Of a DNA stretch of 43,545 nucleotides, positions 1 to 3,510 are shown one piece after another; the stretch's first letter is position 1, and the number at the start of each line of letters is the position of its first letter. A program made the translations under genes and the position numbers. Source of the DNA: an uncultured Collinsella sp. (GTDB taxonomy: Bacteria; Actinomycetota; Coriobacteriia; Coriobacteriales; Coriobacteriaceae); contig CAUBGU010000004.1 of the NCBI GenBank assembly GCA_958435545.1, positions 1 to 43,545 of the forward strand, read 5' to 3'. Below the pieces are notes generated by a model. It was not told the DNA's origin and did no database searches. It was given only the letters and a program-made list of their open reading frames with translations.

Positions 1-1287
1 ATTACCATCGAGAATGCATATAGCCAGTTACTTGCCGAGGGCTATATTTGCTCAATGCCGCGTCGTGGCTACTACGCTTGCGAGCTTCCGGATGCACCGG
101 TTTTGGCTTCGGCTGCGGAGGGCATCGACCGAGATGCCGCCTCTGCGGGTCCCAGCGCGCATGATGTCAACGGACAGGTTGAGCTATTCGATGCACTTTC
201 TCCTTCCGCTTTGGAGGCGGCGCGGCTTTGGCAAAGCGCACTACGGGCGACGCTGGCATCCGAAGATGAGCGCGAAATCTTTTCGCCCGCACCGGCGCAG
301 GGCACCGCTCGGCTGCGACGCGCAATTGCTCACCACCTGCGTGGGACAAGGGGCATGAATGTCGATCCCAACAACATTGTTATCGGCGCGGGCGCCCAGC
401 TGCTCGATACCATGTTGGTTCAGTTGCTTGGCGCTGACAAGGTGTATGCCGTTGAGGACCCGGGCTATTTACGTCTGACGCGCATCTATCAGGCTATGGG
501 CTGCAAAGTTCGACATATCCCGTTGGATGATGAGGGCGTGGACTTGAGCGCTCTGCAGAAAACCGGGACCGATGTACTTCATCTGATGCCGTCCCATCAG
601 TATCCGACCGGCCTTGTGACGAGCATTGCGCGGCGCTATGCGCTTCTGAGCTGGGCCGCCGAGCGACCAGGTCGGTATCTCATCGAAGATGACTTTGATT
701 GTGAGTTTCGCCTTGCCGGGAAGCCGATTCCCGCGCTCGCGTCGATCGATGCCGCCCAGTCGGTTATCTACACCAACACGTTTTCGAAGAGCCTTTCATC
801 GGCGTTGCGTTTGGCGTACATGGTGTTGCCCGATGAGTTAATGGAGCGGTTTAGGCGCAACCTTGGTTTCTACGCCTCGTCGGTGAGCTCTGTTGATCAG
901 GTCGCTTTGGCGCGTTTGCTGGAATCGGGTGATTACGAGCGACATGTGAACCGCGTGCGCGTTCGTGCTCGCGAGGCGCGTGATGGCCTGATGGCGCTTG
1001 TGCGGAAGGTATTTCCGGCAGGAGAGGTCTCGATCGAGCATGCAGACGCGGGCCTTTACTGTATCGTGGTTGCGGAGCGTGGAGCGGGCGGAAGCTCTTT
1101 TGTGCGGGCCCTCACGCGCTCGAGTATCCCTTTTGTCGATATCAGTGACTGTTATTGGTGTGCCGATGGCGCATCTGTCCCTGAAAACTCAAGTCAAATT
1201 CTTGTTCAGTATGACGATTTGAGTCCAAAAGCGCTAAATACCTTGGAATCGCAGCTAATGGGAGCACTCTGCAACCTAAGTGAGTAG
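1..1287 (+). CDS. MocR/PdxR-type transcriptional regulator with aminotransferase domain, 5' end outside window
   Basis: The reading frame is open from base 1, so the gene begins upstream; about 428 residues are visible and roughly the first 50 (most of the GntR winged helix) are missing. The first visible residues, up to GYICSMPRRGYYACEL, look like the end of a GntR DNA-binding domain. The rest is a fold-type I PLP aminotransferase: an EDPGY segment, the DDFDCEF aspartate region and TFSKSL, whose lysine should carry PLP. MocR/PdxR proteins use an aminotransferase-like domain as an effector sensor, often for PLP or amino-acid metabolism. The target gene is probably upstream or divergent and cannot be seen. 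The last residues, NLSE followed by TAG, are encoded by a repeat that starts at 1276. Family assignment is firm; the effector is unknown. Confidence 0.93.
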   Translation: MTIENAYSQLLAEGYICSMPRRGYYACELPDAPVLASAAEGIDRDAASAGPSAHDVNGQVELFDALSPSALEAARLWQSALRATLASEDEREIFSPAPAQGTARLRRAIAHHLRGTRGMNVDPNNIVIGAGAQLLDTMLVQLLGADKVYAVEDPGYLRLTRIYQAMGCKVRHIPLDDEGVDLSALQKTGTDVLHLMPSHQYPTGLVTSIARRYALLSWAAERPGRYLIEDDFDCEFRLAGKPIPALASIDAAQSVIYTNTFSKSLSSALRLAYMVLPDELMERFRRNLGFYASSVSSVDQVALARLLESGDYERHVNRVRVRAREARDGLMALVRKVFPAGEVSIEHADAGLYCIVVAERGAGGSSFVRALTRSSIPFVDISDCYWCADGASVPENSSQILVQYDDLSPKALNTLESQLMGALCNLSE

Positions 1288-1396
1288 GCTTTTGGAACTT
1301 TGGCGACCAGGCAGTTTTGTAACAAGCTATCTACCTGCGGTTTTGAAAAGCAGGATGACCGGGCTGCTCGGGATGTTCAAAAAAGTCTACTCACTT
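1276..1396 (+). repeat. 121-bp interspersed repeat with inverted ends, copy A
   Basis: This copy aligns without gaps to 2696-2816 at about 80% identity (24 differences counted by eye). Its left end reads CTAAGTGAGTAGGCTTTT and its right end AAAAGTCTACTCACTT, so the ends are near-perfect inverted repeats of each other. The left end encodes the last residues and TAG stop of the upstream regulator gene. No target-site duplication is evident. It could be a MITE- or REP-like mobile repeat, or a long hairpin acting as a transcription terminator. Confidence 0.85.
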
Positions 1397-1430
1397 GTCG
1401 CGCAAAGCTTCTGCATGAGAAAAAAATGGG

Positions 1431-1496
1431 GTTTTCAACAGAACTTCGTCCAGCTCTCGGCAAGCTTTTGGCCAGTTGGGGAGGGCTGTTGAAAAC
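1431..1496. repeat. Inverted repeat in leader of the 1580 gene
   Basis: GTTTTCAACAG (1431-1441) is exactly complementary to CTGTTGAAAAC (1486-1496), giving an 11-bp stem with a 44-nt loop. It lies between repeat copy A and the nuclease-like gene. It may be a leader structure, a regulator site, or the end of another small repeat. Confidence 0.5.
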
Positions 1497-1520
1497 TTGG
1501 CAGTCCGTTCGGCACCATTT

Positions 1521-1538
1521 TTGGCGCGTTCGCGCCAA
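1521..1538. promoter_or_regulatory. Palindrome upstream of the nuclease-like gene
   Basis: TTGGCGCG and CGCGCCAA, separated by TT, form a perfect 8+2+8 palindrome 41 bp before the ATG at 1580. The tight spacing fits an operator better than a terminator. No regulator can be named. Confidence 0.4.
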
Positions 1539-1579
1539 TGCGTGACTGACTGGGTTGAAATTCGTGTTTTCCTGTGCCT

Positions 1580-2707
1580 ATGAAGGATTTACTTTGTGAC
1601 ATATCGGCTTTTAGGTACTGGCGTTTGCCTCCTCAAGTCCGCGCTTTGTGTCCGCCGCTTCCACGACCGGAAGAAGACCGGCAGCGATATGATCTCGCCC
1701 GCAACCCGACGGCTGCGGTCGCGCTCGGTTTTCCGTTGTATACATTGGTTCGGACGAGAAACAAACGGACTTGTCCAGCCAGCATTAGGCAGCGGCTGTT
1801 TCTTGGTGAGCTTCCCAGGGAATCCGTGCTGGAAACGGAGCATGGGTTTTTGATTACGTCTCCTCTACTGACGGCATTCATCATGTCGCGGCACCTGACG
1901 GATCTCCAGCTTCTTTTGGTATTGGCGGAGATGTATGGCTTGTTTGCGGTGTGCGCTCTGCCGGCGGCACTTGAGGCGGAGCTTTCGCGTGCAATTGATT
2001 CGGGCGCGATTTCGACAACGTTCGGTTGGGTGCGCTGCCCGTCCGAGGACGGCACCGCCTCAAATTTATGGCGTCGAGACGCTTTGGTTTTGGGCGGAGA
2101 CCTTGACCGTTTTTGTTCAGATGTTTGCGGGGTGCGTTACGGCAATAGATTTATGGCGGTATCGCAACTCGTTCCATTGGGTGCCGCGTCGCCTTTTGAG
2201 GTCGAGGCGTATTTGTTGCTTGGACTGCCGCGAGCCCTGGGGGGCGAAGGGTTTTGCGGCATAGAGCTCAATGTCGAAGTGACGCTAAGCACAAGTGCTC
2301 GAGCGATTGTGGGAAAGTCCCGTGTATATATCGACCTACTTCTTTCTTCACCGGACGGTAGGCGACAGGTGGCCATTGAATGTCAGGGAAAGGCCTCGCA
2401 CGGACGCGCAGGGGATGGCTTGCGTGACGCTGACCGCATGACGGCCCTTCAGGCCATGGGCTACGATGTGCTTCTCCTGACACACAGACAGATATCGGAT
2501 GAGGATAGATTCCGCGCGATCGTTAAGGCCATATGCAGGATGCTCGATGCTGAATATCGTGATAAAAGCTCGGATGAGCAAAGGGCTGAGATATTACTCC
2601 GGTCTGAACTATTCATTGACTGGACAAAATTGGGAGTAATCGACGGAAAGATGCCCGTTAGACACAAAATGGCTCGATCGTGGACGGCTGCGAATCTAAG
2701 TGAGTAG
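1580..2707 (+). CDS. Uncharacterised protein with DUF559/Vsr-like nuclease signature
   Basis: I do not recognise a characterised homologue; I recall many similar proteins in Coriobacteriia, some compared with AbiEi-like proteins. The protein has 375 residues from the ATG at 1580; an in-frame GTG at 1574 would add two. Neither start has a convincing ribosome site. Numbered from the GTG, the C-terminal third holds YIDLLL with Asp254, then AIECQGK with Glu269, His276, a D-x-D-R segment near 285-288, and a hydrophobic GYDVLLLTH strand. This order resembles the E-x-D/Q-G-x-x-x-H core of DUF559 and Vsr-type PD-(D/E)XK enzymes. The N-terminal two-thirds is unassigned. The gene lies between repeat copies A and B, and copy B encodes its last residues (NLSE, TAG). 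A nuclease or DNA-binding role is inferred; an antitoxin-like regulator is the alternative. Confidence 0.7.
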   Translation: MKDLLCDISAFRYWRLPPQVRALCPPLPRPEEDRQRYDLARNPTAAVALGFPLYTLVRTRNKRTCPASIRQRLFLGELPRESVLETEHGFLITSPLLTAFIMSRHLTDLQLLLVLAEMYGLFAVCALPAALEAELSRAIDSGAISTTFGWVRCPSEDGTASNLWRRDALVLGGDLDRFCSDVCGVRYGNRFMAVSQLVPLGAASPFEVEAYLLLGLPRALGGEGFCGIELNVEVTLSTSARAIVGKSRVYIDLLLSSPDGRRQVAIECQGKASHGRAGDGLRDADRMTALQAMGYDVLLLTHRQISDEDRFRAIVKAICRMLDAEYRDKSSDEQRAEILLRSELFIDWTKLGVIDGKMPVRHKMARSWTAANLSE

Positions 2708-2818
2708 ACTTTTGTCACTTTGGCGACTAGGTCGTTTTGCAACAAGGCATTTACCTGCGGCTTTATAAAGTGATATGGATGGTCTGCTCGGCAAGTTCCA
2801 AAAAGTCTACTCACTTAG
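2696..2818 (+). repeat. 121-bp interspersed repeat with 18-bp perfect inverted ends, copy B
   Basis: CTAAGTGAGTAGACTTTT at the left end is exactly complementary to AAAAGTCTACTCACTTAG at the right. The copy is in the same orientation as copy A, 1,420 bp downstream. It starts inside the coding frame of the preceding gene and supplies its TAG stop, as copy A does for the regulator gene. It may double as a terminator for that gene. Confidence 0.87.
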
Positions 2819-2883
2819 TTTTTGACGAGAAGCCGATGCCGAAGACGGTCCTATTTCAGGGCGTTAACAAGTTCGTGAGGCAC

Positions 2884-2949: not shown

Positions 2950-3510
2950 TTAGCCAAAGTAGCGCTTGAGCAGGCCGGCGAAAGCCTTGCCGTGGCGGGC
3001 CTCGTCGCGAGCCATCTCGTGCACGGTGTCGTGGATGGCATCGAGGCCAGCGGCCTTGGCGCGCTTAGCAAGATCGGTCTTGCCGGCGGTGGCGCCGTTC
3101 TCGGCCTCAACGCGCATCTCGAGGTTCTTCTTGGTAGAGTCGGTCACGACCTCGCCCAGGAGCTCAGCGAACTTGGCGGCGTGCTCGGCCTCCTCGTGGG
3201 CAGCCTTCTCCCAGTACAGGCCGATCTCGGGATAGCCCTCGCGATGAGCGACGCGAGCCATGGCCAGGTACATACCGACCTCGGAGCACTCGCCCTCAAA
3301 GTTGGCGCGCAGGTCGGCAACGATGTCCTCAGAGACGCCCTCCATCTTGGCGACGCCCACGACGTGCTCGGCAGCCCACTCGAGCTGGCCCTCCTCCTGC
3401 TTCAGGAAACGAGAACCGGGAACGCCGCACTGGGGGCACTTGAAGTCCTCGGGCAGCTGATCGCCGTCGAACTCTTCCACATAACCGCAAACGGGGCAAA
3501 CAAACTTCAT
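2950..3510 (-). CDS. Rubrerythrin, rubredoxin-first (reverse) type
   Basis: The 186-residue protein starts at the ATG at 3510, which has an AAAGGA ribosome site 7 nt upstream; a longer open frame to 3615 lacks one. A rubredoxin-like iron site lies at the N-terminus (CPVC at residues 5-8, CPQC at 25-28). A ferritin-like four-helix domain follows, with di-iron ligand motifs such as EEAEH (about 106-110) and DEARH (about 169-173). This is the domain order of reverse rubrerythrins, which reduce hydrogen peroxide and oxygen in anaerobes using NAD(P)H through partner reductases. It is cytoplasmic and monocistronic, with its own terminator, and diverges from the alcohol dehydrogenase operon. An oxidative-stress role is expected from the family; the electron donor is not encoded nearby. 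Confidence 0.93.

Follow-up and report, generated by a model that had tools for sequence, protein, structure and literature searches.

Repetitive extragenic palindromic (REP) sequences and REPINs have so far been tied to one type of enzyme, the HUH transposases known as RAYTs. REPINs have conserved inverted ends, spacers whose length and hairpin capacity matter, and compensatory changes, and the cognate RAYT gene lies in single copy beside its repeats, with several distinct RAYT genes per genome (PMC3116915, the part consulted). RAYT genes are said always to be flanked by two inverted REPs with which they co-evolve (PMC2817692, in part), and REPs linked to RAYTs are known to carry GTAG tags (PMC3733652, in part). 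Here we describe a locus at the start of a 43,545-bp stretch of DNA from an uncultured Collinsella sp. (contig CAUBGU010000004.1; hereafter the window), in which a gene for a nuclease-like protein lies between two palindromic elements. We consider it probable that these repeats are REPIN-like dispersed elements and that the enclosed protein is the cognate partner of their arm class.

The two elements stand in direct orientation, 1420 bp from start to start, and are 80% identical over 124 nt (97 of 123 positions; left arms 17/18, right arms 16/18). The outer 16-bp arm pair is perfect in copy 2 and has one mismatch in copy 1. The sequence-only reading of this DNA had described ~121-bp direct repeats with inverted ends that bracket one gene, and the measured lengths of 119-123 bp agree with it. 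A scan of the whole window for inverted repeats with 16-bp arms, at most one mismatch and a span of 75-164 bp returned copies 1 and 2 only. The same criteria gave three hits in 1.4 Mb of a first-order Markov null of other loci and 13 in 490 kb of real C. aerofaciens-complex DNA away from known elements. Rfam, at its gathering threshold, had no match in the window.

Elements with the same arms are dispersed in the C. aerofaciens complex. The exact two-arm pattern was present in 13 of 39 relatives, all of the same genus, and the 64 named stretches that carry the element are all Collinsella, mostly C. aerofaciens. The distance between outer arm ends was 119 bp in 131 of 135 raw matches, the others measuring 118 bp (three) or 120 bp (one). 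Once duplicate places were removed, 82 distinct instances remained in seven flank clusters (sites 0 to 6; copies 1 and 2 of the window are at sites 1 and 2), each cluster being the same place across strains and the site 0 cluster spanning two neighbouring positions; further sites exist as unclustered profile matches. The dyad symmetry comprises the 16-bp arms, an inner CGA.CA at positions 27-32 with its inverse near 88-93, and the centre ACCTGCGG, and ten arm pairs are invariant among 41 representatives. Genomes of the complex hold 2-9 strong elements among the matches listed.

Elements built on the same plan with other arms occur in other species. A profile, R1, matched 38 of 43 Collinsella genomes (E <= 0.01), its matches in other species being preselected for likeness to the aerofaciens interior. 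In seven genomes selected for having R1 matches, a manual count found CGAGTA to begin exactly 29 bp ahead of the centre motif in 15 of 29 orientable elements, the others being mostly one letter off; the arms of these elements are quite different from the aerofaciens arms. A 17-bp arm pattern, only partly independent of R1 since its arms came from R1 matches, yielded 30 arm pairs in genome G017 and 26 in G023, with spacings of 108 bp (25 and 25), 109 bp (4), 107 bp (1) and 110 bp (1). Exact arms had a partner at 107-110 bp in 51 of 53 cases in G017 and in all 41 in G023, and one of the two unpaired G017 arms has a partner with 2 mismatches. Among 48 elements analysed from these two genomes, 43 were 125 bp long, four 126 bp and one 124 bp; mean pairwise identity was 0.89 in the arms and 0.50 in the interiors, many of which contain GAGTAG...CTACTC.

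The two arms of an element change together. Covariation is nearly absent from the invariant aerofaciens arms and strong in G017/G023, where positions 9/117 and 10/116 are paired in 42 of 43 elements (shuffling expects ~25) and positions 6/120 in 35 of 43 (shuffling expects 18.5); such covariation cannot tell a DNA dyad and an RNA or single-stranded DNA (ssDNA) hairpin apart. At the orthologous locus L391/L400 the interior is still alignable, yet the two arms have together gone from type TT..AA to type GA..TC, and in seven other compared pairs the arms have switched too, with more diverged interiors. Concerted switching of this kind would fit copying or conversion of ends better than independent substitutions. 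At four G023 loci (L393, L395, L397 and L404) element pairs lie 34-160 bp apart, sometimes one per arm type, and L395 holds a hybrid element carrying one arm of each type.

Genes of the nuclease family are found beside such elements. Adjacency was counted at 39 hand-picked Collinsella matches plus the orthologue region of G049, and at 20 loci from other genera of Coriobacteriia; these held 37 Collinsella genes and 19 other Coriobacteriia genes with a clear family match (tblastn E < 1e-3), the window's own orthologues being excluded except as query. A repeat with 16-bp arms, at most one mismatch and a span of 100-170 bp lay within 300 bp of the open reading frame (ORF) at 27 of the 37 Collinsella genes, mostly with arms of its own, and at 10 of the 19 others. 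In Collinsella, 34.3 kb near the genes held 31 such repeats and 162.4 kb lying more than 600 bp away held 4; for the other genera the figures were 12 in 17.2 kb near the genes and 0 in the 53.5 kb beyond. At control loci with PF18741 genes from other Actinomycetota a repeat was seen in 2 of 29, both inside the traced ORF, although the control is imperfect in that several of the 29 loci hold very large ORFs which run off the stretch and leave their ends uncovered. The link between the repeats and this gene family, for which the sequence-only reading had proposed a test, is real and extends further than that reading had supposed. The surroundings of a distant family gene at L217 (G017 C9:323500-330500) depart from the two-arm layout: several palindromic repeats, nested and similar to one another, flank the gene.

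The gene-side arms are specific to class. The same arm sequence stands on both sides of the gene in the window and at L215, L226, L245, L300 and L304, and gene-side arms equal the dispersed arms of the same genome in C. aerofaciens, G017 (L215) and G006 (L226). A gene of G021, whose product shares 42% identity with the window protein in the aligned part, has arms that are shared with four dispersed copies in G046 and also resemble the window arms. A second arm class occurs in eight aerofaciens-complex genomes as 16 pairs at 110-111 bp, six of them beside the paralogue L251/L252 and ten elsewhere (the paralogue was not located in G040 and G049). This paralogue is 35% identical to the window protein. 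Dispersed elements of two classes, which differ in arms and in paralogue, coexist in these genomes; Coriobacteriia hold several gene/element pairs. Arms were alike in 6 of 8 protein pairs above 60% identity, 5 of 17 at 40-60% and 1-6% of the pairs below; the Mantel p of 0.0025 for arms against proteins is partly trivial, as orthologues share DNA by descent. The centre motif (at most one mismatch, within 14 bp of the midpoint) is found in 10 of 35 gene-side elements, compared with 1.4% of shuffled controls and 3 of 70 off-centre controls, and is not universal.

The dispersed elements themselves carry no gene. A family gene within 1 kb was found for 0 of 29 dispersed elements in G017 and 0 of 17 in G023, and for none at aerofaciens sites 0, 3, 4, 5 and 6 (12, 8, 6, 6 and 3 elements); the corresponding figures are 4 of 5 at site 1 and 5 of 5 at site 2. 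Another 35 aerofaciens matches have no site assignment, and 18 of them lie near a family gene, which in those inspected is the window's orthologue.

The window protein is predicted to combine an AbiEi-like N-terminal part with a Vsr/homing-endonuclease-like C-terminal domain. The sequence-only reading had noted a DUF559/Vsr-like E-x-Q-G-x-x-x-H signature in it. The predicted fold is of the PD-(D/E)XK/Vsr type, with conserved acidic residues; the profile matches are below threshold, with an E value of 0.12 for DUF559 and of 3.5e-6 for PF18741 (REase_MTES_1575; 27.4 bits, under the 38.2-bit cut-off). Many homologues carry a precomputed PF18741 assignment and the paralogue L251 exceeds the DUF559 cut-off. 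The catalytic-type residues D252, E267 and H274 are invariant across 40 homologues, and a dN/dS of 0.22 among 12 indicates purifying selection. NCBIfam returned no match for the window protein and neither did a defence library, in which one paralogue had a weak 'homing endonuclease' match (E 0.0038).

Compared with REPIN/RAYT systems, the Collinsella elements likewise have conserved inverted ends, a set spacer length and compensatory arm changes; they exist in many dispersed copies (30 arm pairs in G017, 26 in G023, and 2-9 strong elements per genome among the matches listed in the aerofaciens complex), and a single-copy gene lies beside its own repeats, with several gene/element pairs per genome. 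Here too the gene and the repeats at its sides co-evolve. The likeness to REP sequences and RAYTs drawn loosely by the sequence-only reading proved apt, this being the closest known system. Unlike it, the partner is a Vsr/DUF559-like PD-(D/E)XK protein rather than an HUH (Y1) transposase, the elements are longer (119-170 bp) and far fewer (~4-30 per class and genome where counted), single arms are nearly absent, and no excision was seen (no read data were analysed). The novelty rests on the partner enzyme family, the defining feature in which this system departs from REPIN/RAYT; going by its layout, it would count as a variant. No earlier description of a nuclease/element partnership was found in the open-access literature, including the text of two REP papers, a search that did not extend to subscription papers and preprints.

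Other known systems share single features with the locus. Vsr-like homing endonucleases (I-Bth0305I) and DUF559/REase_MTES_1575 proteins differ in that the gene described here lies outside any intron or intein, beside a palindromic element with dispersed copies. Unlike an AbiEi antitoxin gene, it has no adjoining toxin gene in the window (the neighbours encode an aminotransferase and a rubrerythrin) and its product has a nuclease-like domain fused. Miniature inverted-repeat transposable elements (MITEs) are short elements with inverted ends, and integron cassettes place a gene between direct repeats, and the locus resembles both to that extent. It differs from both in that the interior and spacing plan are conserved while the arms change between species. 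Of the marks of a MITE, no target duplication was seen at the empty alleles of two sites and no parent transposon with the same ends among the sequences encountered, though none was systematically sought. From an integron cassette the locus differs in having the gene at one place and gene-less dispersed copies (no integrase search was made).

A partnership might operate as follows. The protein, probably a dimer, would bind the arms of its own class and nick or cut there; repair after cutting would homogenise the elements and occasionally spread them, and the gene itself would remain in single copy. Arm recognition and element spreading are both inferred. In its full form, which we put forward tentatively as an attractive possibility, the proposal is that these AbiEi-like/Vsr-like nucleases of Coriobacteriia, with several paralogues per genome, are an independently evolved counterpart of REPIN/RAYT, each paralogue recognising, spreading and homogenising its own element class by cutting and templated repair, with both arms rewritten jointly at many loci as specificity drifts.

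A mobile alternative is the 1,420-bp unit suggested by the sequence-only reading, the gene together with a single repeat; it would move as a whole, in the manner of an integron cassette. The gene is indeed bracketed by direct repeats and a gene-less allele is known in four genomes. However, 12 of 24 same-genus genomes have the gene, once each, with little spread in identity (92-98%) and at one place: by synteny with the rubrerythrin gene it is present at 16 of 21 aerofaciens-complex loci, missing from four and cut off by a contig end in one (G019). No sister strain was seen to carry the same gene and repeat at another site, and the dispersed elements, as counted above, have no gene. The gene-less allele (G040, G041, G052 and G054) lacks both elements as well; in it MocR ends at a TAA ahead of a terminator, and it differs by a block that includes the MocR 3' part, with no clean target duplication. 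It looks as though the MocR 3' part was exchanged jointly with the nuclease block, the difference at this site being a block exchange. We therefore find a mobile unit of this kind scarcely credible. The empty orthologous sites looked for do exist, at two places, but neither is element-sized: the second is site 6, where five genomes have the element, 14 of 16 other loci examined have a short junction of 33-64 bp, and the presence/absence unit in the simplest comparison is 366 bp with no target duplication. The remaining two loci are L354, with a 1.2-kb insert, and L349, not alignable on the left. Among the initial loci there were no clean empty sites, as expected since these had been chosen for carrying elements. 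The outcome named by the sequence-only reading as refuting its proposal, in which copies would be scattered without relation to the protein family and empty sites would be lacking, is not what we found: the link exists and empty alleles are present at two sites.

The other explanations keep the elements and change their meaning. It is very improbable that they are nothing more than structural hairpins, or large terminators acting in both directions, at the ends of genes. The single strands of the two copies do fold well, with z of -3.0 and -5.9 for the + strand, and convergent ORFs enclose several aerofaciens sites, but a terminator scan found no G+C-rich hairpin followed by a T run at either copy, terminators need neither an exact length nor class-specific arms nor adjacency to one family, and elements in G017/G023 show no preference for gene ends (tandem 16, divergent 12, convergent 10 and unclassified 8 of 46 by crude ORF calls); placement at gene 3' ends, which the sequence-only reading had proposed to test, has no support in these two genomes. 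We regard it as very improbable that they are ordinary REPINs of Collinsella Y1/RAYT transposases, with nuclease genes nearby by chance or as a landing place. Y1_Tnp matches do occur in 37 of 43 Collinsella genomes, and the GAGTAG...CTACTC of many interiors recalls the GTAG tags mentioned at the outset; against this, the elements adjoin the nuclease family instead, the element-bearing genomes G006 and G047 have no Y1_Tnp at E <= 1e-4, and in five genomes none of the 20 listed Y1 genes comes closer than 28 kb to a listed element (two of the coordinate sets being partial). Because Y1 is absent from the former and distant in the latter, we do not count the system as a member of REPIN/RAYT, though it would work alike. 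A more substantial competitor, unlikely in our estimate yet with a real chance of being correct, is a regulon in which the protein is an AbiEi-like DNA-binding regulator, the elements are its selected, immobile operators and the nuclease-like domain serves another purpose. Elements in Collinsella are commoner 3' than 5' of the family gene (21 against 10 for the 37 genes; 5 against 7 for the 19 elsewhere) and are therefore not mainly promoter operators; moreover, the arms change type in concert across loci and the catalytic-type residues are conserved.

Several observations weigh against a nuclease/element partnership. The fold matches are only middling (best Foldseek E against the PDB, 0.083), and no such repeat lies within 300 bp of 10 of the 37 Collinsella genes and 9 of the 19 others. 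The counted loci are not all independent because several are mutual orthologues (L219/L232, L251/L252, L229/L249, L227/L247, L216/L220/L233 and L222/L240). Many strains share the positions of their elements, which leaves little sign of movement, and neither sites 1/2 (block) nor site 6 (366 bp) shows an element-sized insertion or a target duplication. The four nuclease-less genomes also keep 2-4 strong elements: among the matches listed, G040 has 4, G041 3, and G052 and G054 2 each, compared with 4 to 9 in nuclease-bearing genomes, where two of the elements travel with the gene. By eye, and with G019 (4 elements) omitted because its contig ends at the site, there is no clear element decay in these four genomes. 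With elements kept without the nuclease and no element-sized insertion, the regulator-with-operators explanation therefore stays viable.

If the partnership is real, an unrelated second gene family would have matched palindromic repeats, and such partnerships would have arisen more than once. Many 'hypothetical' DUF559-type proteins of gut Coriobacteriia would gain a role, and many natural protein/site pairs would become available for studying the joint change of a DNA-cutting protein and its palindromic site. The question of what sustains the association, posed for RAYTs and their repeats (PMC3116915, the part consulted), would become testable in a second system.

The elements of the window also bear on the ends of the neighbouring genes. 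As the sequence-only reading had noticed, both upstream proteins end in NLSE within the left arm of an element (...CNLSE for the aminotransferase/MocR-type protein, ...ANLSE for the nuclease-like protein), each stopping at the TAG of CTAAGTGAGTAG; this arm reads TAA-g-TGA-g-TAG and has a stop in each of the three frames. Its further idea, that insertion restores a stop codon, did not survive comparison. In site representatives the arm-supplied stop is used at only sites 1 and 2 of the seven clusters: a gap of 26 to 229 bp separates the end of the upstream ORF from the element at sites 0, 4, 5 and 6, and the ORFs next to the site 3 element are directed away from it. The G017/G006-type arms examined have no TAA-TGA-TAG series. 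We therefore rejected stop-codon restoration as a function, and since only sites 1 and 2 among those read show an arm stop, the stop codons look incidental, produced by a single arm sequence that lies at the ends of two genes. Coordinates of the features are collected in Table 1.

Table 1. Features of the locus at the start of the window
Feature	Position	Strand	Remarks
MocR-type aminotransferase ORF	1..1287	+	start beyond window edge; final LSE and stop in left arm of copy 1
Element copy 1 (site 1)	1278..1396	+	119 bp between outer arm ends; arms 1278-1293 / 1381-1396
Inner motif CGACCAG of copy 1	1304-1310		imperfect inverse near 1364-1370
Centre motif ACCTGCGGT of copy 1	1333-1341
Nuclease-like gene	1580..2707	+	375 aa counted from ATG 1580; homologues also 375 aa
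Predicted PD-(D/E)XK/Vsr-like domain of nuclease-like protein	residues ~202-323		C-terminal
Stop codon of nuclease-like gene			within left arm of copy 2
Element copy 2 (site 2)	2696..2818	+	123 bp including outer CT/AG; arms 2698-2713 / 2801-2816, exact
Centre motif ACCTGCGG of copy 2	2753-2760
Block differing from gene-less allele (G040, G041, G052, G054)	~1068..2880		MocR 3' part, both elements and nuclease gene
Rubrerythrin gene	2950-3510	opposite	downstream of nuclease-like gene

Some further observations were made along the way. The 3' part of the MocR-type ORF (1068-1287) is far more diverged from the gene-less strains than are its first 1067 bases. The copy-1 element of G049 is split by an insert of ~1.5 kb that has a single ORF of 513 aa (L234:2105-3738; G049 C1:1347604-1349237); the junctions show a 9-bp direct repeat (AGCAGGATG), and the insert resembles an ordinary insertion sequence. 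The 1.2-kb insert of L354 (G012 C1, site 6), seemingly also an insertion sequence, lies inside a short hairpin at an otherwise empty site. Finally, a separate dispersed hairpin repeat of ~40 bp (L068 query ~711-750) occurs at many places in the C. aerofaciens complex. One copy lies ~1.1-1.4 kb from a Y1_Tnp gene in G004, G019 and G054, and this repeat may be the ordinary REP of the RAYT-type genes of Collinsella.

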